From: a virus
Strand: one strand, 5' to 3'
Virus record (IMG/VR): IMGVR_UViG_3300047994_000064
Location: 1-37,557 of that record
Length of the DNA stretch: 37,557 nt
Below are positions 3,512 to 36,024 of this stretch, piece after piece. The position numbers and the translations under genes are program-made. Below the pieces are notes generated by a model that saw only the letters and a list, made by a program, of their open reading frames with translations, did not search any database and was not told the DNA's origin. How positions within the stretch are numbered: the first letter of the stretch is position 1; each line of letters opens with the position of its first letter.

Positions 3512-4782
3512 GGCGCGTCCCCGGCCCAGGTGAGCACGCGCAGCCGGTCCCAGCCGCCGCGGCCCACGGTGAGCGTGAGCAGCCCGGACGGGGCGGCGTC
3601 GCCGGTCTCGCGCGCCCACCACTCGGAGCCGTTGTCGAGCGCCGGCGCCTGCACCCACGTCTTCGCACCGGACTGCACGACGCGGACGTGGTGGTAATGG
3701 CCAGACACGAGCAGGGTTGCCTCCCCGGCGGGGAGCATCCCGTGAGCCTGCCCGGCCCACCACTTCTCGGCGCCACCCTTGCACTGGTGGCCGTGGGCGA
3801 CGGCGACGATGGTACCGCCGAGGTCGACGGTCACCACGTCCTTGTCGACGCCGGGAAAATGCCAGGCGACGTGCCCGAACTTCTCCGGCTGGTCGGCTAG
3901 GCGCTCGCACACGGCGGCGGCGGCGTCGATGTCCCACGAGTCGTGGTGCGCCGTCTCGACCTGCCGCGTCGACTGGTCGTGGTTGCCGCCGACGGCGATG
4001 ACGGACACGGCGGGGGCGACCTTCGCGAACGCCATGACGACGTGGGCGACGATGCGCCGGTAGACGCGGACCATCTCGGTGGGGAACAGGTCTGTGCGGG
4101 CGATGAGCCGGCCACCCTGGGAGACATAGCCCTCGCAGCCATCGCCGGGGAAGATCAGCGCGACCGGCCCGGCCTCGCCGCGCTTGGACAGCGTGCGGTA
4201 CTCGGCCAGCGCCCGGTCGGTCAGCGCGAGGATGCGGGCGACGGTGCGGTCGGTGCCACCGCCGGCGGGCTCCCACTTGCCGATCTGCATGTCGGCGTAG
4301 ACCACGGTGAACGTGTCTGCGGTTTCGCTGACCGCCGGTCGCGGTTTCGCTGACCGCCACCGGTCGATCGCGGCGAGCAGGTCGTCGGCGCTGTTGGCAG
4401 ATTCGGTGGTCTGCTCGACGCGGAAGCGGTAGCGCCATACCGGCTTGGTGACGGCGGGCGCCTGGCGCAGCTGCCCGTCCTTGCCGGGCTCGGGCATGTA
4501 CGGCTCGGGCCGGGTCCATGCCTCCGGGTCGAAGCGGGCCTCGACCAGGACCAGGCGCCAGCCCTCGGGCAGGGTGACGCCCATCGCCTCGACGGCGGTG
4601 CGCCACTCGTCCTCGGTTGACAGATGGTTGACGGCGTCGGTGGTGATCTCCGACGGCTGCCCACCGGCGTAGCGGACGCCGGGCTCGAAGCCCTTAGGCG
4701 CTGCGGTGCGGGTGCGCTTGGGTGCCTTCGGCGTCGGACCCGCTGCGGCGTACTCAGCGGCGAGCGAGTCGCCCAGGCTCAC
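3496..4782 (-). CDS. Metallophosphoesterase (calcineurin-like)
   Basis: This 428-residue protein has the metal-binding motifs of the calcineurin-like phosphoesterase fold in order: YADMQ (D164, Q166), FPGDG (213-215, in place of the usual GDxxD), GGNHD (266-269), AHGH (330-332) and SGHYHH (361-365). The likely activity is metal-dependent phosphomono- or diester hydrolysis; the substrate is unknown. The N-terminal 150 residues are a separate region that begins MSLGDSLAAE, like the protein encoded just upstream (MSLKDALAAE). The ATG overlaps the stop of that gene (4779-4782). An 18-bp repeat at 4319-4336/4341-4358 sits between the two halves. Confidence 0.85.
   Translation of the reverse strand: MSLGDSLAAEYAAAGPTPKAPKRTRTAAPKGFEPGVRYAGGQPSEITTDAVNHLSTEDEWRTAVEAMGVTLPEGWRLVLVEARFDPEAWTRPEPYMPEPGKDGQLRQAPAVTKPVWRYRFRVEQTTESANSADDLLAAIDRWRSAKPRPAVSETADTFTVVYADMQIGKWEPAGGGTDRTVARILALTDRALAEYRTLSKRGEAGPVALIFPGDGCEGYVSQGGRLIARTDLFPTEMVRVYRRIVAHVVMAFAKVAPAVSVIAVGGNHDQSTRQVETAHHDSWDIDAAAAVCERLADQPEKFGHVAWHFPGVDKDVVTVDLGGTIVAVAHGHQCKGGAEKWWAGQAHGMLPAGEATLLVSGHYHHVRVVQSGAKTWVQAPALDNGSEWWARETGDAAPSGLLTLTVGRGGWDRLRVLTWAGDAPCASP
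4319..4358. repeat. 18-bp direct repeat, 22-bp period, inside the phosphoesterase gene
   Basis: GCGGTTTCGCTGACCGCC occurs at 4319-4336 and at 4341-4358. The 22-bp period is not a multiple of three, so the two copies are read in different frames (RSAKPR and AVSETA). It lies at the junction between the N-terminal region and the catalytic domain. Confidence 0.9.
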
Positions 4783-21338: not shown

Positions 21339-22679
21339 TCAGGAGCCGATGTGCTCGACGACGACACCGCGCTTGAACAGCGCCGTGTCAGCGCTGAACG
21401 ACGTGATGCCGTCGGACGGGACGCAGAAGTCGCCGACCCACGAGTAGGTCGAGGACACGACCTGCTGGAGGCGGTCCTGCGGCGAGCGCGTGATCAGCGC
21501 GATCTCCAGACCGGAGTCACCAGCCTCGACCATCTCGATCGCCGGCGCCGCGCCGTTCGCCGAACTCGAGTCGAACCCGGTCTCGCCGAGAAGGCTGCCG
21601 AAGCCCTCCATCGGGCCGTTGATCAGCGAGCCGGCGCCGAGCACGACCGGGCGGCGCACCTGCAACGAGCCCGCGCCGAGGGTCTTCGTCTGGGAGGGTG
21701 CCTCGACGTTGCGGACCCAGTCGATGCCGCCGAACCGACCGATGGACAGGTTCTCAAAGATCGGGCTGTCGACCCGACCCTGGAGCGCCTGCTTGAAGTC
21801 GGTGTCGCCGAAGAGCTGGCCCTCGGTGATGGCGTCGATGTGCGCGACGTAGTAGCCGTCGATGGTGGGGACGCCCATCTGCCGCAGGCGCGCCACCGCG
21901 GAGCGGAACAGCGACATCGTCGCCACGTCCGCGCCGGTGAGCGTGTACTGCGACGTGCGGGCGCCGGCCCGGACGAAGTACGACGACGTCGACGCCACCA
22001 CGACCCAGCCCGTGGTCGTCGCGACCGCGGTGCCGAGGGTGAGGGTGTTGGTCGCGAGGTTGCAGCCGACGACGGTGTTGGCGACGCCGTTGATCGTGAT
22101 GCTCAGCGGGTTGCCTGCCGAGACTGCGGTCGGGACACCGTTGACCAGGACCTTGTCGAAGCCGTTGGCGTCGTCGACGACGAGGGTGGTGGACGAGCCA
22201 CCACCCGTCGGGACGAACGTGGTGCCGCCGCCGTAGGCCGCGTAGATGCGGTTGCGAGCGACGCGGTTGAGCGACTGCCCGGCCGCGATCGCGAGCGTGC
22301 GCACGTCCTGGAGGTACTTGCTCGCCGCCGCAGCAGCCGACTGCAGCATGTTGGTGTCGATCGACTGCGCGTACTGGTCCAGGACCAGGCTGTACTGCTC
22401 GACCGAGTACGTCGAGGCGGACGGGTCGGCGTTGCCGCCGAGCGCGGTCGTCGACGGCGTGATCAGACCCGTGCGGGTCTTGGTGATCGTGTCGCCGACG
22501 CTGCCCGGCACGGGCTGCAGGTCGCCGACCTGCGGGTAGAGGAACTGCGGCACGAGGGCGTCCTGGAACGCACGCTCGATGAGGCCGTTCTGCATGATCG
22601 CGCGCACAGCCGCGGGCAGCTGCGTGCGGATGTCGTGGCGGCCCAGGTCGAACCAGGACCGCACGAGGGTCTTCTTCAT
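21339..22679 (-). CDS. Major capsid protein
   Basis: This 446-residue protein has the size, position and internal pattern of an HK97-fold capsid subunit, resembling the N4-gp56-like group (e.g. 'QSIDTNMLQSAAAAASKYLQDVRTLAIAAGQSLNRVARNRIYAAYGGG'). Residues about 150-237 (VLVNGVPTAVS..., PLSITINGVANTVVG...) form a beta-rich inserted domain. The N-terminus MKKTLVRSWFDLGRH carries the motif WFDLxRH at residues 9-15, also present at residues 9-15 of the scaffold. The ATG follows GAGGAG and overlaps the stop of the Prp-like gene. I infer N-terminal trimming by that protease. Confidence 0.85.
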   Translation of the reverse strand: MKKTLVRSWFDLGRHDIRTQLPAAVRAIMQNGLIERAFQDALVPQFLYPQVGDLQPVPGSVGDTITKTRTGLITPSTTALGGNADPSASTYSVEQYSLVLDQYAQSIDTNMLQSAAAAASKYLQDVRTLAIAAGQSLNRVARNRIYAAYGGGTTFVPTGGGSSTTLVVDDANGFDKVLVNGVPTAVSAGNPLSITINGVANTVVGCNLATNTLTLGTAVATTTGWVVVASTSSYFVRAGARTSQYTLTGADVATMSLFRSAVARLRQMGVPTIDGYYVAHIDAITEGQLFGDTDFKQALQGRVDSPIFENLSIGRFGGIDWVRNVEAPSQTKTLGAGSLQVRRPVVLGAGSLINGPMEGFGSLLGETGFDSSSANGAAPAIEMVEAGDSGLEIALITRSPQDRLQQVVSSTYSWVGDFCVPSDGITSFSADTALFKRGVVVEHIGS

Positions 22680-22882
22680 GAGGTTGTCTCCTCGGGGGTT
22701 GTGGTGATCTCGACCTGGACCAGGCCGGGGTGTGCGGCAGCGATCTGCTCGAGGCCGAGCAGTGCTGTCTGAGTGATCGCCGACACGGCCGCGCAGACGC
22801 GACCGTCTTCGACGTGCCCCTCATGCCCCTCGACCTCGATGCGCGTCAGCCCCTCGGAGAGATGAGCGCGGACGTGGATCAC
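22676..22882 (-). CDS. Prp-like (DUF464) cysteine protease
   Basis: This 68-residue protein matches the Prp family, known for removing the N-terminal extension of ribosomal protein L27 in Firmicutes. The key block is 'VEGHEGHVEDGRVCAAVSAITQTALLGL': His20 in GH and Cys30 in VCAAVSA are the expected catalytic pair. The loop between them is about two residues shorter than in the staphylococcal enzyme as I recall it. The start is GTG overlapping the scaffold stop (GTGA at 22879-22882), and its stop overlaps the capsid ATG, so the three genes are tightly coupled. The likely substrates are the scaffold and capsid N-termini, which share WFDLxRH. Prp trimming of phage head proteins is known for staphylococcal phage 80alpha with the host enzyme; here the enzyme is phage-encoded. 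Confidence 0.8.
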   Translation of the reverse strand: MIHVRAHLSEGLTRIEVEGHEGHVEDGRVCAAVSAITQTALLGLEQIAAAHPGLVQVEITTTPEETTS

Positions 22883-23490
22883 GAGAAGCGGCGAACGCCG
22901 AGCTTGCGGAGCTCGGCGTCGACCTCGGCCTTGGGAGCCGTGCGCAGGTCGACCGGGGCGGGCGGGGAGCCCTGGACCCCGACACCGGCGGCTGCCGGAG
23001 GCGGGGTGGCGGGCTTGCCAGGCAGGAGCGCCAACAGCGCGTCGGCGTCCGCCTCCATCGCGGCGCGGTCAGCGCCGACGAGTCGAGCTGCGAGCGCCGG
23101 CGGCAGGCCCTTGGCGATGGCCACCTCGGCGCGCAGGAGCTTCTCGTTGGCGTCCGCGGCTGCCTTCTCGGCGGCGGCGGCACGGTCCTCGAGCTTCTGC
23201 TGCTCGGTCTTCTGCTCTTCCTCGATCTCGGCGAGGCGCTTGGTCGCCACCTCGCCGGCCTTGGCCTTCGCCTCGGCTTCCTTGCGGGCCTCGCGCTCCT
23301 TGCGCAGGACCTCCTTGACCTTGTCCGGCAGCGACGTCTCGTCGTCGGCGGGCGGTGCCGGAGGCGTCGGCGGGGGTGTGGGGACAGCAGGGGCGGCGGC
23401 CGGCGGCGTGGGAGCCGGGGGCGTCACCGGAGCAGGAGGGTCCTCGTGACGGGCGAGGTCGAACCAGTGCGTGCGGCGGTGCAGGTCCAT
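22879..23490 (-). CDS. Scaffolding protein
   Basis: This 203-residue protein has the composition of phage scaffolds: a Pro-rich N-terminal section (18-48), a long charged coiled coil (about 55-125: VKEVLRKEREARKEAEAKAKAGEVATKRLAEIEEEQKTEQQ), and a basic end (ELRKLGVRRFS) likely to contact the capsid. It guides capsid assembly and is then lost. The N-terminus MDLHRRTHWFDLARH carries WFDLxRH at residues 9-15, as in the capsid. The ATG at 23490 follows AGGAG. Confidence 0.8.
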   Translation of the reverse strand: MDLHRRTHWFDLARHEDPPAPVTPPAPTPPAAAPAVPTPPPTPPAPPADDETSLPDKVKEVLRKEREARKEAEAKAKAGEVATKRLAEIEEEQKTEQQKLEDRAAAAEKAAADANEKLLRAEVAIAKGLPPALAARLVGADRAAMEADADALLALLPGKPATPPPAAAGVGVQGSPPAPVDLRTAPKAEVDAELRKLGVRRFS

Positions 23491-23576: not shown

Positions 23577-24923
23577 TCAGGCCGGGACGACCGGCGGTGT
23601 CTCGGACGCCGCGGGTGGCTGCTGCTCCGCCATGGCCATCACCCGTGTGATCGTCTGCGGGGTCAGCCCGTACTCCTCGAGCAGGAAGGGCAGCGGGATC
23701 CCGATGGCAGCCAGCTTCGTCATCTGGTCGGCGAGCTGCGCCCGGGACCGGGCCTCGGTGTCGCGCCAGATGACCTGGGAGGCGAGGTCTGTCGCGCCCG
23801 TGTCGTCGCCGGCGGCAGCTGCGGCGAGGCGCATCACGTCCTCCCACGCCTCACCGAAGTCGGCCTGCTTGTCCTCGACTCGGAACTTGAGCCCCGACTC
23901 CGCGGCGACGAGCGCGTCGGCGGAGAGGTTGGCGATGTCGCCGAGCAAGGACTGGGGCGGGACCTGCGCGAGCGCCGCCATCTGTCGCACGTCATCGACG
24001 ACGGCGTCGATGTAGGGCTTGAGGTCGGTGGCGGAGAACTCCCCGAAGGTCGTCTCCTTGTCCTCGGAGATCCAGAGCCGGTCGACCATGGCCTTGAATG
24101 GCTCCACGGGGTTTCCGTCGTCGTCCTCCGGGATGACCATTCCGGTCGCCCACCGCTGCCGGAACGCGGAGAACTTCTGCGCCATGAGCCTGTCGAGGAG
24201 GGTCTCGTTGATGCGGTCCTGGATCGGCAGGAGCGGCGCGATCTCCGACGTGCAGTAGCCCTCGAGGTCGGCGTCGTTGAGGAACGGCACGACCGGGACG
24301 CGCCCGAAGTCGTGGGGCATGACGCCCTCGATCGCCCATCCGTTCGTGCGGTCCCGACGCAGCATCCACGCGGCGGCGTCGTCGTAGAGCGCCGCTCGAG
24401 TACCAGATGGCGTCCGCCAGCGCTTGAGCGCCAGCTGCAGCCGCGCCGGGTCGGAGGCGTCCTGGTCGCCGTACATGATCAGCGCGGAGTCAGCGGCGAT
24501 CTTCGGCACGTCGTCGGTCGCCCAGACGGTCACGTAGGCCCGGGACAGCGCGAGGGCGCCGCGGTGCACCCGGTTCTGGTGGGCGTCCATGCCGTTGGCC
24601 TGCCAGCGCGCCCACGCCGCCGAGTCGGCAGCCTCGTCGACGCTGGACCGGAACCCGTCGACCTTGAGTCGCTGGGCCTGCACCTGCACGACGAGCTTGA
24701 GCCAGTTCGCGCGGGCGCGGCGGATGAGGGCCAGGTACTCGTTGGCGACCTGACGCGGCATCCACGGCAGGTCGAACCGGCCCCGGTGGTACCGGTCGAG
24801 GCGACGGAGCCCGGGGATGATCTCGTTGGTGTCGCTGTCGACCCGGTCGGTGAGATCGACGTCGTGCGCCTTCGCCAGCCGCGTCGCCTCGGCGAGGACC
24901 TGGCTGCGCTGCAGTCGCGCCAC
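23577..24923 (-). CDS. Portal protein
   Basis: This 448-residue protein fits SPP1 gp6-like portals, the dodecameric DNA gate at the head vertex. The N-terminal region has 'RYHRGRFDLPWMPRQVANEYLALIRRARANWLKLVVQVQAQRLKVDGFR'. A long acidic/helical middle follows (PHDFGRVPVVPFLND..., INETLLDRLMAQKFSAFRQRWATG) and a crown-like end (ESGLKFRVEDKQADFGEAWEDVMRLAAAAAG). It directly follows the large terminase gene, as is standard. Confidence 0.85.
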   Translation of the reverse strand: MARLQRSQVLAEATRLAKAHDVDLTDRVDSDTNEIIPGLRRLDRYHRGRFDLPWMPRQVANEYLALIRRARANWLKLVVQVQAQRLKVDGFRSSVDEAADSAAWARWQANGMDAHQNRVHRGALALSRAYVTVWATDDVPKIAADSALIMYGDQDASDPARLQLALKRWRTPSGTRAALYDDAAAWMLRRDRTNGWAIEGVMPHDFGRVPVVPFLNDADLEGYCTSEIAPLLPIQDRINETLLDRLMAQKFSAFRQRWATGMVIPEDDDGNPVEPFKAMVDRLWISEDKETTFGEFSATDLKPYIDAVVDDVRQMAALAQVPPQSLLGDIANLSADALVAAESGLKFRVEDKQADFGEAWEDVMRLAAAAAGDDTGATDLASQVIWRDTEARSRAQLADQMTKLAAIGIPLPFLLEEYGLTPQTITRVMAMAEQQPPAASETPPVVPA

Positions 24924-24932
24924 GTGCCCTCC

Positions 24933-26537
24933 TCAGAAGCCGGCGACGCGGCCGCGTCGCGGAGCGGGGGCGATGAACGACGCCTCGTGCGCGAGAGCGT
25001 CGGCCATCACCATGTCGATCTTCTGGTGGTCGGCTGGCTTGCCGATCACGATGCCGCCGGGGCGACGGACCTTGCGCGCGTTGCGCAGGTGCACGAGCAG
25101 GTCCGGGTCGCCGTCGTGGCTGTACGACTTCTGCGACGTGTCCGTCTGCAGCCGCTCGAGCGCCGCGGCCATCTGCTTGAACCGGTTCGTCGCCCACGAG
25201 ATGACCCGCTTCTCACCGAAGCGGTCGGACCACTCGTCGATCTCGGACTGCCACAGGAACGGGTCGGCGTACATCAGCGCGACCCGGTACCTGTCGAAGC
25301 ACTCCTCGACCGCGGCCTGCACCTCGCCGCGCGGGACCTCGCCGCCGTACTCCGCCGGGTTCCACCTGGCGGGTCGGCCGTCGGCGAAGCGGGGCGTGAA
25401 GCCGTACCAGGTCCCGTCGAGCAGCGCGCGAGCCCTCAGTGCGGTCCAGTCGTCGTACTGCGACCCGTCGAATCCGAGCACGACGTGCGCACCGCGGGGT
25501 ACCTCGCGTGGCTCGGCGAGGGACTCCCACGTCGCGACCTGGTCTCGGCTCATCCACGCATCCGCGGTCGCGACGAGCCGGTTGCCGAAGAACCGCTCAG
25601 CCTGGGCGGCGTCGCGCTCCATGATCTCGACCGCCTCAGCCTCGATCGCGTCGAGATCGACCCAGGGAACGCCGGCGTACACGTGGCGCAGGATCCGGCG
25701 TCGCTCCCTCTTGTCGCCGAACGACAGCTTGGCGGGCGCCTGCGGGAACATCCGGAAGACGTCGGTCGCCTTCGACTCTTGCGTGCGCTGCGCGACGGAG
25801 TCCTCAGCGGGGTCGAACGCGTTCGTGGTCTCGATCGCTCGGCCGCCCATGCCCGCCAGGCCGCGGCGCTGCGTCTCGGCGACCGCAACCATGCCGGACT
25901 GCTTCGTCCACAGCCCGGTCTCGTCCTGGTACGCCGCAGTGATCGGCTGCCCCAGCCGCGACCGGGCGCTCGAGGTGACCTTGTCGATGCGGCCGTCCTC
26001 GCCGACGCGGATGAACTCCTCGCCGACGCGCAGCAGGTCCTCGAGAGGCCCCGTCCGCGCCATGGCCTGCAGCGGCCGCCAGATGTTGTCGGCCTGGTCC
26101 TCGGAGAACGCCGTGACCTGGATCAGCGGCGTCGGCCACGGCATGCCCATCGGCTCGCCGGGCTCGTAGTCGTAGAAAAACCCGCAGGCGCAGCGGTGCT
26201 CCCGGCAGTCGTAGAACTCTCCACCAGCGGCCCACCCGGCGAAGACCGCCGGCCCGACGGCCTGCACGCAGCAGTCCGACGCCGACCAGGGTCCCTTGCC
26301 GGCCTTCTGCGGCAGGATGATCTGCGAACGGCGGTGCGCGAACGCCGGCGCGAGCTGCCCGAGCGTCGCGGTCGGCCGCACCTGGTAGTGCTTGACCGTC
26401 GCACGCAGCTGCCACTCGGTCTCGACGAACGGCTCACCCTTGCGGAAGCCGTCCGGGATCGTGCAGTGCGCTTCCTTCCAGTCCGCGACCAGGAAGCCCA
26501 GTGTCGGGAAGTCGACGACGAACTCGTCAGGCTCCAT
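24933..26537 (-). CDS. Terminase, large subunit
   Basis: This 534-residue protein is the packaging ATPase and nuclease. The ATPase part has a Walker A-like site at 76-82 (PQKAGKG, with G where S/T is usual) and Walker B with D205-E206 (AAYQDET). The C-terminal RNase H-like nuclease has acidic residues at D357 (LGFDGS), D425 (YADPF) and D512 (MADA). A Cys/His cluster (C111, H114, C116, C118) plus C89-C90 is inserted after Walker A. The ATG at 26537 overlaps the end of the small subunit gene by 11 nt. Confidence 0.85.
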   Translation of the reverse strand: MEPDEFVVDFPTLGFLVADWKEAHCTIPDGFRKGEPFVETEWQLRATVKHYQVRPTATLGQLAPAFAHRRSQIILPQKAGKGPWSASDCCVQAVGPAVFAGWAAGGEFYDCREHRCACGFFYDYEPGEPMGMPWPTPLIQVTAFSEDQADNIWRPLQAMARTGPLEDLLRVGEEFIRVGEDGRIDKVTSSARSRLGQPITAAYQDETGLWTKQSGMVAVAETQRRGLAGMGGRAIETTNAFDPAEDSVAQRTQESKATDVFRMFPQAPAKLSFGDKRERRRILRHVYAGVPWVDLDAIEAEAVEIMERDAAQAERFFGNRLVATADAWMSRDQVATWESLAEPREVPRGAHVVLGFDGSQYDDWTALRARALLDGTWYGFTPRFADGRPARWNPAEYGGEVPRGEVQAAVEECFDRYRVALMYADPFLWQSEIDEWSDRFGEKRVISWATNRFKQMAAALERLQTDTSQKSYSHDGDPDLLVHLRNARKVRRPGGIVIGKPADHQKIDMVMADALAHEASFIAPAPRRGRVAGF

Positions 26538-26988
26538 CGCGCGGGACGACCTTGAGGCGATCGCGCGAGCTCGACCTCGGCGCACGCTTCTCCGCGCGCT
26601 TCTCCGCGGTCTCGTCCGCCGCGATCTTCCACCGCAGCGAATGCATGCCCGGCACCGTCAGCCCGAGAGAGTCCGCCAGCTGCCGAACGAGCGTCGAGAG
26701 CGCCGTCGGTGAGCCCGGCTCCTCCGCTTCACACCAGCGACGCACGTAGAGCGCCACCTGGTCCTCGAGTTGGAATCGCGACCATGCGACGGCCTGCGGC
26801 TTCGACCACAAGCTCGCCCACACCGCCGTCTCGCGCTCGGACTGCTCGATGAACGGCCAGTCAGGGGCCTTCTCCGTGCGACCGCGCGCCGGCAGGAGCA
26901 GCCACTCGCCGTCGGACTTCCGATCACGCCTCAGAGCGGCCGGATCTGGGGCCGGACCGGACCTGTTTCGGGCTCCACCACTGGCCAT
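26527..26988 (-). CDS. Terminase, small subunit (probable)
   Basis: This 153-residue protein lies directly before the large terminase gene. It runs MASGGARNRSGPAPDPAALRRDRKSDGEWLLLPARG...TEKAPDWPF, continues with helices (SERETAVWASLWSKPQAVAWSRFQLEDQVALYVRRWCEAEEP) and ends very basic (EKRAEKRAPRSSSRDRLK). This is the pattern of actinophage P27-like small terminases that recognise the packaging site. The ATG at 26988 follows AGGAG. Confidence 0.75.
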   Translation of the reverse strand: MASGGARNRSGPAPDPAALRRDRKSDGEWLLLPARGRTEKAPDWPFIEQSERETAVWASLWSKPQAVAWSRFQLEDQVALYVRRWCEAEEPGSPTALSTLVRQLADSLGLTVPGMHSLRWKIAADETAEKRAEKRAPRSSSRDRLKVVPRDGA

Positions 26989-29908: not shown

Positions 29909-30114
29909 GGCGCCTCGAACGTGACCAGACAGAGGTCGGCGTCCCATTCCTCGGCGGGTCGCGCCGTGCCGACCATGAGGGCCTTGCGGGCGCGGCCTTC
30001 GAGGATGACGAGGTCGGCGGCGAGGGCTGCCCGGGTGGTGGCGTCGCAGTGGTCGATGTCGCCTGCGAGGAAGTCGAGGACGCGCATCGTGGCCGCCGCC
30101 TCGCTGATGTTCAC
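29905..30114 (-). CDS. Hypothetical protein
   Basis: This 69-residue protein starts VNISEAAATMRVLDFLAGDIDHCDATTRAALAADLVILEGRARKALM. It is helical in the first two thirds and ends WDADLCLVTFEAP. The GTG overlaps the WhiB stop (GTGA at 30111-30114). No family was recognised. Confidence 0.6.
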   Translation of the reverse strand: MNISEAAATMRVLDFLAGDIDHCDATTRAALAADLVILEGRARKALMVGTARPAEEWDADLCLVTFEAP

Positions 30115-30353
30115 GACGCCTGCTCGAGTGGTCGGGGCCGGCGCAGGGTGTCGCGCTCGGCGGGGGTGAGCGCGGCCCACATGCCGTCGGTCTCCGGGGT
30201 GGTGAGGACGTGACGCAGGCAGTCGGCGATGACGGGGCAGCGGACGCAGACGGCGCGGGCGATGCGGTAGGCGCCCTCCTTGTGGAATCCCTCGGGGAAC
30301 CACCAGTACGGGTCGTGGTTGCGGCAGGCGGCGGCGTTCTGCCAGTCGGTCAC
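30111..30353 (-). CDS. WhiB-family Fe-S transcription factor (short)
   Basis: This 80-residue protein has the four conserved cysteines of WhiB proteins, C10, C36, C39 and C45 (VCVRCPVIADC), which hold a [4Fe-4S] cluster. The G-[I/V/M]-W turn follows as GMWAALTPAER (57-67). Phage WhiB proteins can displace host WhiB factors and change host transcription or superinfection. Coupled to the larger WhiB gene by GTGA at 30350-30353. Confidence 0.9.
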   Translation of the reverse strand: MTDWQNAAACRNHDPYWWFPEGFHKEGAYRIARAVCVRCPVIADCLRHVLTTPETDGMWAALTPAERDTLRRPRPLEQAS

Positions 30354-30871
30354 GATGCCTCCCGTTCGCCGGCGCAGTACGCCGTCCAGGCGGCCCGGCA
30401 CGCGGCGCACGTCGCGGTGCCGGTGCGGCGGTGCTGGCGGTAGCCGCGGGCGGTGCCGTGCTCCTCGGGCAGTGCGGTGCGTCCGGTGCGCCCGGGCTGG
30501 GGTGCGCGTCCGGCGCGCGCCGCGTGGTAGTCGACGTTGGCACGCTGGCAGTCGTCGCACGGGTGCTCGTCGTTGGCGCGGTGGCGGATATACGCGGCGC
30601 GAGTGCCGCAGGGCTGCAGCGCGACGTTGAGGCCCAGGTCGGCGCGGATCTTGCGCCGCTCGCCCTGCGTGAGGCCGCCCCATACGCCTTGCAGCGCGGC
30701 GACGTCCTGCTCGAGCGCGTAGGCCCGGCAGTCGTCGATCACGTCGCACTTGGCGCAGATGGCCTTGGCGATGCGGGCCGGGTGACCCTTCTCCGGGAAG
30801 AACAGCTCCGGATCGGTCTGGGCGCACAGGGCGCCGGCGACCCAGGCTGGTGGGATCTCGGCGAGGGTCAT
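30350..30871 (-). CDS. WhiB-family protein with zinc-knuckle repeats
   Basis: This 173-residue protein has a WhiB domain in 1-80 (C16, C39, C42, C48 and GVWGGLTQGER at 62-72). The extra C-terminal 90 residues hold two related units of the form (C/H)GT.xAYxxHR...C-x2-C (88-113 with C105/C108; 138-165 with C155/C158). The second part is basic and may bind DNA. The ATG at 30871 is chosen because it overlaps the upstream stop (ATGA). Confidence 0.85.
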   Translation of the reverse strand: MTLAEIPPAWVAGALCAQTDPELFFPEKGHPARIAKAICAKCDVIDDCRAYALEQDVAALQGVWGGLTQGERRKIRADLGLNVALQPCGTRAAYIRHRANDEHPCDDCQRANVDYHAARAGRAPQPGRTGRTALPEEHGTARGYRQHRRTGTATCAACRAAWTAYCAGEREAS

Positions 30872-31185
30872 CGCGGTCCCACCCACTGCCAGTGCCTCGC
30901 GGGCCGTCCGGCGTTGCCGCTGGCCCTGTCGTCGTTGGTGCCGATCCAGCCGAGCGAGCGCAGGACACCGCGGCGCGCGAGGGCGCTGTACGTCGCGGAG
31001 AGGGCCTGCGGGTGGACGGTGAGCCCGTGGTCGTTGGACAGCGCGTCGCGGACCCGGTTGGGGTCCACGACGCCGTCGTGGGCCTGGGCGTCGGTGAGGA
31101 TCGCGGCGGTGATCGCACGCCGGTCGCGGTCGGCGATCGGGTGCGGGTTCTCCGCTATGGCGAGGAGGTCGAGCTGCGTGGTCAT
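30868..31185 (-). CDS. Winged-helix-like protein
   Basis: This 105-residue protein contains 'ITAAILTDAQAHDGVVDPNRVRDALSNDHGLTVHPQALSATYSALARRGVLRSLGWIGTND', the layout of a winged-helix DNA-binding fold, and ends GRPARHWQWVGPR. Such proteins are frequent in actinophage early regions. Role unknown. Confidence 0.6.
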   Translation of the reverse strand: MTTQLDLLAIAENPHPIADRDRRAITAAILTDAQAHDGVVDPNRVRDALSNDHGLTVHPQALSATYSALARRGVLRSLGWIGTNDDRASGNAGRPARHWQWVGPR

Positions 31186-31430: not shown

Positions 31431-31549
31431 CGTGTCCACCTCTCGGCGGCGGCCAGTCCTGCGACGAACCCCGCGGCCAGCAGCAGCCCCGCGGCGATGT
31501 CGGCGGCGAAGGCTTGGCCGGCGAGTCGGGGCAGCGTCGCGGCGGTCAC
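31427..31549 (-). CDS. 40-residue membrane mini-protein
   Basis: The protein starts VTAATLPRLAGQAFAADIAAG and continues LLLAAGFVAGLAAAERWTR; residues about 17-34 form a single hydrophobic segment. It is coupled to both neighbours by GTGA overlaps. Function unknown. Confidence 0.5.
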   Translation of the reverse strand: MTAATLPRLAGQAFAADIAAGLLLAAGFVAGLAAAERWTR

Positions 31550-32166
31550 CACGACGACTCGCTCGGGTCGTTCCACACCGTCAGCCGTGGCCCCGCTGGA
31601 CTGGTGCCGAAGTGACCCGCGGCCACCTCGGCAACGGTGAGCGGCGGGGTCGGAACGTGTGGGTTCGGGGTCCGCCATACGAGCAGGCAGAGGCCGAACG
31701 GTGGCCGGTCGCCCTTGACTGGCTTGGTCCAGCCGGGGCGGTCGAAGCGGCGGCGCCCGCGCAGGAAGTGCACCCGGAGGAACGGCCCACCACGGTGCGG
31801 TTCGATCTCGTCCTGCCACCACGACTGCTCGGTGCGGTTGGCGGGCAGGAGCATGGCGATCACGTCCACCTCGCGGCGACACGACTCAACCCATGCCTTG
31901 TCGACCCAGGCCGGGATGTTGCTGTAAGGCGGGTTACACCACACCCGGGCGGCATCCCAGGGCTGTTCGAGTCCGTTGTCGTCGATCGCGAAGAAGCGGG
32001 GCGCCTTTGTGTTCTCGGCGTTGGCCGCCACGTCAAGGTCGAACGCGTCGACCCCGGCGAGCGCGGCGCATTCGGCCAAGAGGTCGACCGGTGTCCGCCG
32101 GTCGTCTACGTCATCTCGCACCAGTTGCTGAGGGTGGTTTTGTGCGCGGAATCCGATGAGGCTCAC
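31546..32166 (-). CDS. Phage DNA N-6-adenine methyltransferase (Dam family)
   Basis: This 206-residue protein matches the phage Dam family: 'RRTPVDLLAECAALAGVDAFDLDVAANAENTKAPRFFAIDDNGLEQPWDAARVWCNPPYSNIPAWVDKA'. The catalytic NPPY lies in WCNPPYS, and the S-adenosylmethionine-binding part is DLDVAAN. It methylates adenine in DNA, usually to resist host restriction. GTG start at 32166, coupled. Confidence 0.85.
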   Translation of the reverse strand: MSLIGFRAQNHPQQLVRDDVDDRRTPVDLLAECAALAGVDAFDLDVAANAENTKAPRFFAIDDNGLEQPWDAARVWCNPPYSNIPAWVDKAWVESCRREVDVIAMLLPANRTEQSWWQDEIEPHRGGPFLRVHFLRGRRRFDRPGWTKPVKGDRPPFGLCLLVWRTPNPHVPTPPLTVAEVAAGHFGTSPAGPRLTVWNDPSESSW

Positions 32167-32621
32167 AGCAACTCTCCTCCCGCGATGCGGGCGGCGGCAC
32201 GGAGTCCGTCGAGGTGGGCGTTCCGGTAGCCGTTGTTGCCGGGTCGGGGCCACGTGGCGCGTGTCGTGTCGACGGCGGCTTCGATCTCCGCTGCGACCTG
32301 TGCGCGGATCAGCGGCGTCAACGTCTCGACGGCGACGGTGGCGAGGGCGGACGTGACCCACGGGAGCATGCGCTGCCACGTCGCGTCGTTGATCCACGGC
32401 ACGCCCGCGCAGGCGCACGGCTGCTCCATGTGGTCGCAGTCGCCGCAGCGGTGCCACTCGAACGGGTAGGGGCAGTCGCAGAAGTCTCCCCGGTGCTCGC
32501 AGCACTCGGTCCAGTCATCGAATCCGCCCTGCACCATCGCCGTAGCGACGGCCTGCCGTGTGGCGTCCTCGAACGCGGGGGCCTCGGCCACTGCCGCGAC
32601 GTGGGCAGCGTCGGCGGTCAC
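32163..32621 (-). CDS. Cys-rich hypothetical protein between two methyltransferases
   Basis: This 152-residue protein has a Cys/His-rich section (WTECCEHRGDFCDCPYPFEWHRCGDCDHMEQPCACAG, about 37-73) that probably binds one or two zinc ions, followed by helices (MLPWVTSALATVAVETLTPLIRAQVAAEIEAAV). It lies between two DNA methyltransferase genes in a coupled operon. Confidence 0.6.
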   Translation of the reverse strand: MTADAAHVAAVAEAPAFEDATRQAVATAMVQGGFDDWTECCEHRGDFCDCPYPFEWHRCGDCDHMEQPCACAGVPWINDATWQRMLPWVTSALATVAVETLTPLIRAQVAAEIEAAVDTTRATWPRPGNNGYRNAHLDGLRAAARIAGGELL

Positions 32622-33628
32622 GACTCGTCTCCGAACAGGTCGGCCTGCTCGTGTGCGCCGAGGCAGGAGGGTGAGAGCCAGAGGCGTTCGCGGCGTCCGT
32701 TGTCGGCGCGGGTTGAGTACCCGGCGCCACTCCCGGCCTTGCCCGCGGTGACGGTCCAGCCGAGCGCCAGGAGGTCGTCGTGTTCGGCGTCGTACCCGGC
32801 GAGGATGATCCGCATGGCGGGGTCGGATTCGGTGGCGCACCATTCGCGGACGGTGGCGCTGACGGTGCTGTCGCCGTGGGCGTACAGGTCGCCACTGGTC
32901 GCGTAGGGCGGGTCGAGGAACAGTGCGCGCGTACCATCTCCACCGGCGCCGCTGCGGGTGACTGAGGGTTGGCAGACGCGCCGCCAGTCGCCGCAGGTGA
33001 TGCGGACGCGTCGGAGGCGGTCGGCTAGGCGGTTGAGGTAGTCGACGAGTCCTTGTCCCGCGTTGCCGAGGTGGGGCAGTTCCCGGTTCACGCCTCGTCC
33101 CGCGGTGCCGAGGTGGGGCAGTTTCCGGTTCACGCCTCGTCCCGCGGTGCCGAGGTGGGGCAGTTTCCTCGTGTCAACCAGGCGGTCGTCAAGCACACGC
33201 CACGGACCCGAACCGAATGGGTCACCGATGCCGCACGCCAGGACGTACAGCCACCACCCGGCGGCCTTCGCGTCATGCGCCTCCGGGTGGCCCTCAAGCC
33301 ATGACACGAGCCCGTCGTTGCGGCGCTCGTTCAGCCACGCCAGCCGGGCGTGGTAGTCGATCTCCGTCACGGGTCCATAGGCGTGCTCAGAGACCCTGCC
33401 GGGGCTGAGCTGAATGGCGCGCCAGGCGTTCACGAGCCATCCGTCGGCGTCGTTCAGCGTCTCGACGCGGCGACCCTTGAACGCTGGTCGGGCGAGCAGG
33501 ACGGCTGCGGACCCGGCGAACGGCTCGACGTAGCCAGACGGATCACCGAGGCGGTCCCACACGATGCTGGCGGCGCGACGCTTGCCGCCAAAGTACGGGA
33601 ACGGTGCCGCGGGCGTCGCGGCGGTCAC
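32618..33628 (-). CDS. D12-class DNA adenine methyltransferase with internal repeats
   Basis: This 336-residue protein has D12-class N6-adenine methyltransferase motifs in order: PYFGGK (11-16), YVEPFAGS (33-40, SAM binding) and LDPPYA (238-243, catalytic). Between them, at 154-195, is a 14-residue unit repeated three times, RKLPHLGTAGRGVN twice and RELPHLGNAGQGLV once. These fall near the target-recognition region. It methylates phage DNA, probably as anti-restriction. The ATG at 33628 is the first gene after a short membrane group. Confidence 0.85.
   Translation of the reverse strand: MTAATPAAPFPYFGGKRRAASIVWDRLGDPSGYVEPFAGSAAVLLARPAFKGRRVETLNDADGWLVNAWRAIQLSPGRVSEHAYGPVTEIDYHARLAWLNERRNDGLVSWLEGHPEAHDAKAAGWWLYVLACGIGDPFGSGPWRVLDDRLVDTRKLPHLGTAGRGVNRKLPHLGTAGRGVNRELPHLGNAGQGLVDYLNRLADRLRRVRITCGDWRRVCQPSVTRSGAGGDGTRALFLDPPYATSGDLYAHGDSTVSATVREWCATESDPAMRIILAGYDAEHDDLLALGWTVTAGKAGSGAGYSTRADNGRRERLWLSPSCLGAHEQADLFGDES
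33051..33168. repeat. 42-bp tandem repeat inside the D12 methyltransferase gene
   Basis: A 42-bp unit starting TGCCGAGGTGGGGCAGTT occurs at 33064, 33106 and 33148, with a partial copy before the first (from 33051). Copies differ by a few bases. The period equals 14 codons, so copy-number changes would keep the frame. Confidence 0.9.
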
Positions 33629-34087: not shown

Positions 34088-34356
34088 GTCTCGTCTCCTT
34101 GGTCGATGCGGTAGTCCGGCGCGAAGCCGTAGTCCGGGAACGCGGTGGCCCGGTCGGTGCCGCGCGGTGGGAGGACGCCGGCGGCGCGTGCGATCTGCTC
34201 GGAGACGCGGCGGGCTTCGTCGTCGGTGAGGTCGAGCAGCCCGTTGGGCAGGGGCCGTCCGGCGATGATCCGGGCCCAGGTGTCCACGTCGCGGCGGTCG
34301 ACGCCCGCGAGGCTGGCGGCGAGGCGCAGTCCCAGGTCGTTCTGCACGGCGGTCAT
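34084..34356 (-). CDS. Hypothetical protein next to RecT
   Basis: This 90-residue protein starts MTAVQNDLGLRLAASLAGVDRRDVDTWARIIAG and continues 'LLDLTDDEARRVSEQIARAAGV'. It is helical and mildly acidic. No family was recognised. Its ATG overlaps the RecT stop. Confidence 0.6.
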   Translation of the reverse strand: MTAVQNDLGLRLAASLAGVDRRDVDTWARIIAGRPLPNGLLDLTDDEARRVSEQIARAAGVLPPRGTDRATAFPDYGFAPDYRIDQGDET

Positions 34357-35309
34357 GCCGCCGCCTTCCGGGGCAGTCGGTTGAGCAGCAGCGACACCTC
34401 GGCGGCAGTCAGGTCCTTCGTCGACTCCACCGCCCGGTCGACGCTGTTCGAGACACGCCGCAGCACCTCGGCCCGGTCGATGCCCTGCGCCTTCGCGTAG
34501 GCCGACAGGCCCGCCTGCAACGCGCGGAACGCCGCGTCGGTCGGTGCCGCCGACGGTTCGTGCAGCGACCGGCCAGCGGCGACCCGCTCGGCGGGTGATG
34601 CCGCCGAGGCCAGCGGGTCGGGCAGGATCTCGCCGGTGTCCTCGTCGACCACCTCGGCGTCGGTGATGTCAGACGACGAGGCGGCGGGCCCCAGGTCGGA
34701 AGCCGGGTTCGGGGACGCATCCCCGAATACCTCAGCCGGTTCCTGTACCGCCCCGTCGTCCGCCTGTGGGACCACCTCAACGGTGGTCGGGTACGCCTCG
34801 GCAACGACGGCGTCATCCCCAAGTTCCTCAGCGGTGTACGCCACCCCCGCCAGCGCCTCCGGGCACGCATCCCGCGCGCACTCCGTGATCGCACGGGCCT
34901 TCAGCATGTTCGCCGGATACGCCCGCCACGTCTCCTTGCCCGTCAGCTTCGCGTCCCGCGCCCGCTCGATGGTCCACTCCGCAACGAACGTGAAGTCCGG
35001 GTCGTCGGCGCGGGTGATCTCGCAGCGGGCCTGCGTCGCGTCGCCCGTGACCCGCAGCCGATGCCCCGCCTTGCGGACCAGCGCGCCGATGAGCTGCGCC
35101 GACGCGACGGGGCGGCCCTGCACGATGTGCACCTGCTGGATCGACACCATCGGCGGGATGCCCAGCGCCGCACCGTATTCCAGCGCGACGAGGACGTTGG
35201 CGGGCTTGCCGCGGTACGCCTCGGGCAGCAGTCCGGAGCCGGACAGCGCCTGCGCGTAGGTCATGCGGTCAGGCACGGAGGCGTTGTAGATCGCCACGTC
35301 GCTGCTCAT
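34353..35309 (-). CDS. recT: RecT-like single-strand annealing protein
   Basis: This 318-residue protein has a core ('KPANVLVALEYGAALGIPPMVSIQQVHIVQGRPVASAQLIGALVRKAGHRLRVTG...KARAITECARDACPEALAGVAYTAEELG', about 35-190) that is the hallmark of actinophage RecT proteins, which anneal complementary DNA in phage recombination. The C-terminal third is acidic and disordered, followed by a helical tail. No exonuclease partner is present in the neighbourhood. Confidence 0.85.
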   Translation of the reverse strand: MSSDVAIYNASVPDRMTYAQALSGSGLLPEAYRGKPANVLVALEYGAALGIPPMVSIQQVHIVQGRPVASAQLIGALVRKAGHRLRVTGDATQARCEITRADDPDFTFVAEWTIERARDAKLTGKETWRAYPANMLKARAITECARDACPEALAGVAYTAEELGDDAVVAEAYPTTVEVVPQADDGAVQEPAEVFGDASPNPASDLGPAASSSDITDAEVVDEDTGEILPDPLASAASPAERVAAGRSLHEPSAAPTDAAFRALQAGLSAYAKAQGIDRAEVLRRVSNSVDRAVESTKDLTAAEVSLLLNRLPRKAAA

Positions 35310-35575
35310 GCCCCCACCACCGCGACCGGCCACCAGGATGCCGCGACGGGCACGTCGTCGATGCGCCCCGTGACGAACAGGTGCGACCCGTTCGCCCCGG
35401 TGACCTCGGCGACGGCGTTGACGGCCATCGCCCAGGCGACGGTGGTGGCGTTGCGGGCCGGGTAGACCTTGATGCCGTCGGCGTCGAGCTCGATGCGGAC
35501 GTCGGCGGAGACGCCGGCGTTGCCGAGGGCGCGGACGACGAGGGCGGCTGCGGTGTAGACCGCGGCGAGGCTCAT
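35306..35575 (-). CDS. Hypothetical protein upstream of RecT
   Basis: This 89-residue protein starts MSLAAVYTAAALVVRALGNAGVSADVRIELDADGIKVYPARNA, followed by a beta-rich part ending in hydrophobic VAASWWPVAVVGA. It resembles small alpha/beta proteins encoded beside actinophage recT. Function unknown. Confidence 0.6.
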   Translation of the reverse strand: MSLAAVYTAAALVVRALGNAGVSADVRIELDADGIKVYPARNATTVAWAMAVNAVAEVTGANGSHLFVTGRIDDVPVAASWWPVAVVGA

Positions 35576-36024
35576 CGGACCACCGCCGGGATCTGCCGCG
35601 GGAAGCGCGACTCGACCTCGAACCGGTCGACGCGCAGCAGCTTCGGCCCAACGCGGTAGGCGACCAGCGTGCCGTCCGCGACACGGCGACGCAGTGTCTT
35701 GGTGGACACGCCGAGCATCGACGCCGCGTCCTGCAGACTGATCAGGTCCTTCGCGCCACCACTGCGGCCGACGACGCCGGGCATGCGGCGGGGCGCCGTG
35801 GGACGGCCCGCGCGGTTGAACACCGGAGCCTCATCGCGGATGGCGGCCCGCTCTGCGCTCGCCGCCGCACCACGCGAGTCGAAGGTCTCCACCTCGACGC
35901 GGACGACCTGCGAGAACCAGTGCTTGTCGGCGTGCTGGGAGAACCGCTTGCGCGTGTCCTTGGTGATGCCGACGTAGAGCAGCGCGCCGCCCTCGTCGAA
36001 CATCCGGTACAGGGTGGTCGCCAC
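35572..36024 (-). CDS. GIY-YIG nuclease domain fused to excisionase-type HTH
   Basis: In this 150-residue protein, residues 5-72 form a GIY-YIG nuclease: LYR (5-7) and YVGIT (17-21) stand for GIY-YIG, R25/R27, E59 and N70 fill the remaining sites, and 'TRKRFSQHA' is the typical helix. Residues 95-140 ('ISLQDAASMLGVSTKTLRRRVADGTLVAYRVGPKLLRVDRFEVESRF') are an AlpA/MerR-type helix-turn-helix. It could be a site-directed nuclease or a repurposed DNA-binding protein. The GTG at 36024 touches the upstream stop (TAGTG); a GTG at 36033 would add three residues. Confidence 0.75.
   Translation of the reverse strand: MATTLYRMFDEGGALLYVGITKDTRKRFSQHADKHWFSQVVRVEVETFDSRGAAASAERAAIRDEAPVFNRAGRPTAPRRMPGVVGRSGGAKDLISLQDAASMLGVSTKTLRRRVADGTLVAYRVGPKLLRVDRFEVESRFPRQIPAVVR

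Follow-up and report, generated by a model that had tools for sequence, protein, structure and literature searches.

A compact Prp-like protease gene between N-terminally tagged scaffold and capsid genes: a candidate head-trimming system of actinophages in hosts lacking Prp

The head-gene cluster and its Prp-like gene

The analyzed window, i.e., the whole stretch of 37,557 nucleotides of the viral record IMGVR_UViG_3300047994_000064, carries a head-gene cluster on its minus strand in the order large terminase subunit, portal, scaffold, a gene of 68 residues and capsid. The terminase large subunit (24933-26585) matches phrog_19179 (1.7e-148), and the SPP1 gp6-like portal protein (23577-24923; PF05133, 2.2e-40) adjoins the scaffold gene upstream. 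The head scaffolding protein of 203 amino acids (22879-23490) matches head-scaffold families in a PHROG profile search (phrog_1793, 1.9e-22) and PF14265 (5.2e-6), and the major capsid protein of 446 amino acids (21339-22679) matches phrog_1357 (3.2e-20) and resembles the N4-gp56 type at 2e-12 and 47 bits, below the curated cut-off of 60. The compact gene between them (22676-22882) starts with GTG and, as the initial annotation had stated, is joined to both neighbors by overlapping codons: the scaffold stop overlaps its start by 4 nt (GTGA) and its end overlaps the capsid start by 4 nt (ATGA). Between the portal and scaffold genes no other head protease gene was found, and no further protease families were detected among the window genes scanned. 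An actinomycete host is suggested by the nearest relatives and by a WhiB gene. A WhiB-domain protein, Dam-type and D12-type DNA methyltransferases and a RecT-like annealing protein are encoded at 30111-31118, 31546-32505, 32618-33628 and 34353-35684, and a tRNA-Ala gene with the anticodon cgc is located at 4291-4365.

The 68-residue protein matches the Pfam family PF04327 (Peptidase_Prp) with an E-value of 1.5e-8 and 35.1 bits at a cut-off of 27; the match spans only profile positions 1-56 of 90. In relatives the compact proteins have a length of 62-68 amino acids, and the C-terminal part of the Prp fold, approximately 40 residues, is absent. Against the NCBIfam equivalog for the canonical ribosomal-processing Prp the compact protein scores 23 bits and does not reach the cut-off of 171, and a sequence profile built from the compact family retrieves the Prps of S. 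mutans (1.7e-4) and S. aureus (0.008). In an alignment of 64 distinct compact sequences G19, H20, C30 and S34 are invariant, of which G19, H20 and C30 are common to compact and full-length Prps, and His20, preceded by Gly, and Cys30, with which helix 1 begins, are the predicted catalytic dyad. Ser34, at Cys+4, is the equivalent of Ser38 in S. aureus Prp; it is replaced by Thr in one further subgroup, so that the position keeps a hydroxyl group. Codon changes at His and Cys are all silent, Ser34 is encoded by both TCN and AGC codons, and the compact genes show a median dN/dS of 0.27. The equivalent of S. aureus Asp31, which precedes the catalytic Cys, is deleted together with its neighbor (GeDIvC vs Gr--vC). 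For S. aureus Prp it was shown that loss of Asp31 abolishes the enzyme activity and that the substrate P3 Gln contacts Gly29 and Asp31 (PMC9405229). The Prp/DUF464 signature described in the initial annotation is borne out by the Pfam match and the invariant His and Cys, while its designation as a phage-encoded Prp is correct for the family but not for a standard Prp, since the protein is half-length and has no Asp31 equivalent. It is classified here within PF04327 as a branch that has diverged and is of half length, and not as a canonical ribosomal-processing Prp (C108).

Shared N-terminal tags on scaffold and capsid

The N-termini of the scaffold, MDLHRRTHWFDLARHE, and of the capsid, MKKTLVRSWFDLGRHD, both carry a common motif at residues 9-15, read as WFDLARH/E in the scaffold (codons at 23446-23466, minus strand) and as WFDLGRH/D in the capsid (22635-22655, minus strand), with a predicted cut after H15 in both. 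Besides the translations, a DNA pattern for the tag finds two matches in the window, both at these N-termini, while shuffled sequences give 0.01. The motif pointed out earlier is thus real, but its identical placement in both proteins is a coincidence, because the start residue varies along the N-terminus among relatives; it is the motif and not its position that is conserved. It could be argued from the short length of the compact gene that it represents a full-length Prp in decay and that the two N-termini are alike by chance. This is extremely improbable, given the chance expectation for the motif, the low dN/dS and a length and dyad that are preserved over several actinomycete genera.

Similarity scans yielded 72 and then 80 viral loci, two sets that overlap, and 28 loci in genomes. 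The compact form is encoded in 19 of the genome loci, which come from Streptomyces, Sphaerimonospora, Nonomuraea, Catenulispora, Glycomyces and Streptosporangiaceae; the other nine belong to Bacillota, where those loci that were read encode full-length Prps of 108-110 amino acids. The order scaffold, compact Prp, capsid is kept in more than 120 related phage and prophage loci, and wherever the contig extends far enough both flanking genes begin with a W-F-x-L-x-R-H-like motif, with a few deviating scaffolds; scaffold variants include WTFNLACFD (L035) and WFAVARHD (L110). By a single strict pattern, the genes on both sides of the compact Prp were seen to carry the motif in 109 of 126 loci, the other 17 being contigs cut near the Prp gene, matches seen only by another pattern, or variants. 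Outside the scaffold and capsid genes of these loci the motif was found in nothing but two unrelated frames. Near-invariant columns are few in an alignment of 93 scaffolds, for which the motif was required for inclusion, and they include its W, F, L, R and H. The spacing of the first two residues, W-F or W-x-F, agrees between scaffold and capsid of the same phage in 73 + 7 cases and disagrees in 3 + 1 (p 2e-7, not corrected for kinship). In three loci (L005, 5192-6598; L006; L078) the capsid N-terminus holds a tandem motif, SWFRLDRHDG...ARPWFDLGRHD, which is suggestive of a tag duplication.

The scaffold sequence FDLARH/E aligns in the register of the classical Prp site F-N-L-Q-L-F, and a recognition site of the form [W/F](x)F-x-[L/I]-x-R-H in this register appears to be the best explanation of the motif. 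Three observations lead to this reading: the scaffold forms WLFNLARF/D, WLFDLARF/D and WTFNLACF/D bridge the two types, having Phe at the predicted P1 where His is usual; classical tags occur on the same two proteins in phages of Bacillota; and capsid relatives without Prp start at the residue that corresponds to D16. The likeness to the classical Prp site that had been suggested from the window is well supported by these comparisons. The P1' residues at the tags are D, E, A or N and extend beyond small residues, which was counted against cleavage.

Capsids of the type found in the window carry the motif together with the Prp gene in 65 of 66 loci, and in the single exception the contig begins 46 bases ahead of the capsid gene. 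Conversely, 80 relatives of the capsid of Komagataeibacter phage phiKX1 have neither Prp nor tag. The co-occurrence survey proposed in the initial annotation therefore shows both features jointly present or jointly missing, and no locus with the motif, without Prp and in a Prp-less host was found in it. As regards the search itself, the window capsid as a single-protein query found no matches among viral contigs, while an alignment of capsids recovered relatives; no capsid relatives were found on plasmids. Alternatively, the common motif might be a capsid-scaffold interaction or portal-targeting signal that is unrelated to the Prp gene, which would then have another substrate. In phage 80alpha such N-termini can act in assembly uncut, the scaffold N-terminus being required while cleavage of neither scaffold nor capsid is essential (PMC5744158). 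However, this explanation leaves the joint presence and absence in capsid loci (65/66 vs 0/80) and the same pairing with the known Prp site in Bacillota phages unaccounted for, and we consider it very unlikely.

The N-terminus of the Prp-less capsids reads MAIANFPAxLQPxIQQG, with slight variation. If residues are counted backwards from the aligned Pro (P7 vs P22), their Met1 corresponds to D16 of the window capsid; this correspondence is an ungapped manual count, and the aligner puts the first three residues elsewhere. By this count the start of the Prp-less capsids coincides with the predicted cut H15/D16, i.e., with the predicted new N-terminus.

Hosts and related Prp systems

All of the 16 host genomes examined contain a single Prp match, which is the prophage copy, and in all of them the ribosomal protein L27 is short, starting with MAHKKGA without an extension. 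Among 395 genomes of the class of these hosts any Prp was found in two, both being prophages of the compact-Prp family, and a capsid-profile search of the same genomes gave full matches in those two alone. As a control, the same Prp search was positive for 51 of 61 Bacillota genomes. As the hosts carry Prp only within prophages and have the short L27, the phage enzyme is there without a host counterpart or a ribosomal substrate. This agrees with the earlier proposal of a head-maturation system independent of the host, and head trimming in these actinophages seems to rely on their own enzyme where the host lacks Prp.

One of the closest systems known is S. aureus Prp (MEROPS C108) with the scaffold gp46 and capsid gp47 of phage 80alpha. 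The same two substrates are N-terminally tagged in both systems, which have in common the GH...C...S signature and the register F/L-x-L-x-x-[F/H]/. They differ in that 80alpha relies on the host enzyme while the actinophages supply their own, in the tag, LNLQFF/A in 80alpha and FxLxRH in the actinophages, and in the enzyme, which in S. aureus comprises approximately 106 amino acids including Asp31, in contrast to the compact form of 62-68 amino acids without Asp31. The actinophage tag has no P3 Gln and the compact Prp no Asp31, i.e., the two contact partners are lost together.

A Prp encoded by the phage itself, as inferred earlier for the window, is not unique to actinophages. Full-length Prps are encoded by phages of Bacillota, including Enterococcus phiFL3A (gp45), Brochothrix BL3 (gp6), Lactococcus PLgT-1, Oenococcus Krappator27 and the Acutalibacter phage Fontainebleau; they belong to phrog_4478 ("peptidase"). 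Like in the actinophages, their Prp gene lies in the head cluster and scaffold and capsid are tagged, but the enzymes comprise 95-104 amino acids, are encoded ahead of the scaffold or a minor head gene and are paired with a classical tag. Tags of the types LNLQFF/A, MNLQLF/A and LNLQRF/A were found in phiFL3A, BL3, PLgT-1 and in Oenococcus and Latilactobacillus phages, and HFNLQLF/D and FFNLQLF/D in the Fontainebleau group. Prps of Bacillota phages, e.g., that of L305, have Asn at the position of Asp31. Unlike the actinophage hosts, the Bacillota hosts usually possess a Prp as well. In the Fontainebleau group FNLQLF also marks the N-terminus of a further protein of ~180 amino acids (L306-L312), encoded ~2.6 kb downstream from where the capsid gene starts, which is possibly the major tail protein; no third tagged protein was seen in actinophages.

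Among actinophages, gene 6 of the Streptomyces phage Kromp (MH744420), annotated as "protease", encodes the same compact Prp with 75% identity, in the same three-gene order and with the tags WFQLTRH and WFRLDRH. Kromp additionally has gene 4 (L002, 3866-4882), annotated as "capsid maturation protease", which matches Pfam VG15 weakly and below the cut-off; the window has no gene at this place. Kromp reaches high titre on S. coelicolor (PMC13175485). Two further candidates were rejected. ORF22 of Shewanella phage Y11 (OQ927986; L353, 32262-32669) is discussed as Prp in its paper (PMC10846135) but has no Pfam Prp match and lacks the signature, and the Prp match in the record of Enterococcus phage Efs 1-1-1 (OR846610; L352) apparently lies in a bacterial L21-Prp-L27 region, so that this record may represent bacterial DNA.

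A proposed role in head assembly and the fold of the compact Prp

Very probably, the compact protein acts as a dedicated half-length Prp-type protease, encoded on the same message as its substrates, that removes tags of 15 residues from scaffold and capsid during head assembly. The enzyme would be produced from one message together with scaffold and capsid, recognize the N-terminal tags of both and cut them after His15 while heads assemble, and an oligomer would compensate for the missing half of the protein. The bond directly after the His, H15/E16 in the scaffold and H15/D16 in the capsid, is the likely cleavage site. Directly supported by the sequences are the homology, the gene order, the matched and exclusive tags, the conserved dyad, hosts that lack both Prp and a cleavable L27, and capsid relatives in which Prp and tag are missing together; from these we infer that cleavage occurs and at which exact bond. 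The earlier view of an actinophage with its own Prp and a matched, divergent motif gains support from the co-occurrence and from the Prp-less hosts.

As neither cleavage is essential in 80alpha, conservation of the tag may reflect binding instead of cutting (PMC5744158). The compact protein could accordingly be a chaperone or assembly factor that binds the tags of scaffold and capsid and has lost the cutting activity, as the missing Asp31 equivalent and C-terminal half and the requirement of 80alpha for the scaffold N-terminus, not its cleavage, might suggest (PMC5744158). We regard such a factor as unlikely, because a pure binder would be expected to lose the His, Cys and Ser, which are retained as invariant residues, with silent changes only in the His and Cys codons and with a Ser drawn from two codon families and exchanged only for another hydroxyl residue; the coincidence of the predicted cut with the natural start of Prp-less capsids argues in the same direction. 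With a cutting enzyme as the preferred reading, the tag may in addition aid folding or assembly, by analogy to 80alpha, which needs the scaffold N-terminus while cleavage is dispensable (PMC5744158).

With somewhat less confidence, we slightly favor a more specific model, in which a half-size Prp of ~62 residues is active without the Asp that is essential in S. aureus, working as an oligomer whose active site has been rebuilt, and in which the FxLxRH specificity shifted together with the two substrates of the phage once the enzyme had moved into hosts lacking Prp and a cleavable L27. If this is true, it would constitute an unusually small protease subunit having its own tag. Compact Prp and tag would represent a natural enzyme-tag pair that diverged in step, and the joint loss of P3 Gln and Asp31 makes it possible to examine directly how the specificity of Prp evolves. 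The minimal size of the compact form informs what the Prp fold requires for catalysis, which is relevant to inhibitor design against essential Prps. The findings also suggest that Prp could serve phage head maturation alone, outside the bacteria that need it for their ribosomes. Bacillota phages already have annotated Prp genes, and Kromp gene 6 is labelled "protease"; a search of mostly open-access literature found no account of a phage Prp with matched tags, of the compact form, of the FxLxRH tag or of its occurrence in Prp-less hosts.

A predicted single-chain model of the compact Prp shows a beta-beta-alpha arrangement with two strands and one long helix (pLDDT 91.7). Foldseek with this model returned no Prp match and nothing at E < 1, and in a second structural alignment (VIA) the top row was S. 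mutans Prp (2g0i_A), weak with Z 4.3, rmsd 2.4 and 55 aligned residues. A second model including full-length rows was poorer (pLDDT 74) and was set aside. Two origins of the compact form were compared, an internal deletion that fused helices 1 and 2 and a plain loss of the C-terminal half. Residues 37 to the end score 14.3 and 14.2 bits against the two helix profiles, with shuffled 99th percentiles of 3.1 and 4.8, and residues 45 to the end prefer the C-terminal profile in just half of the sequences.
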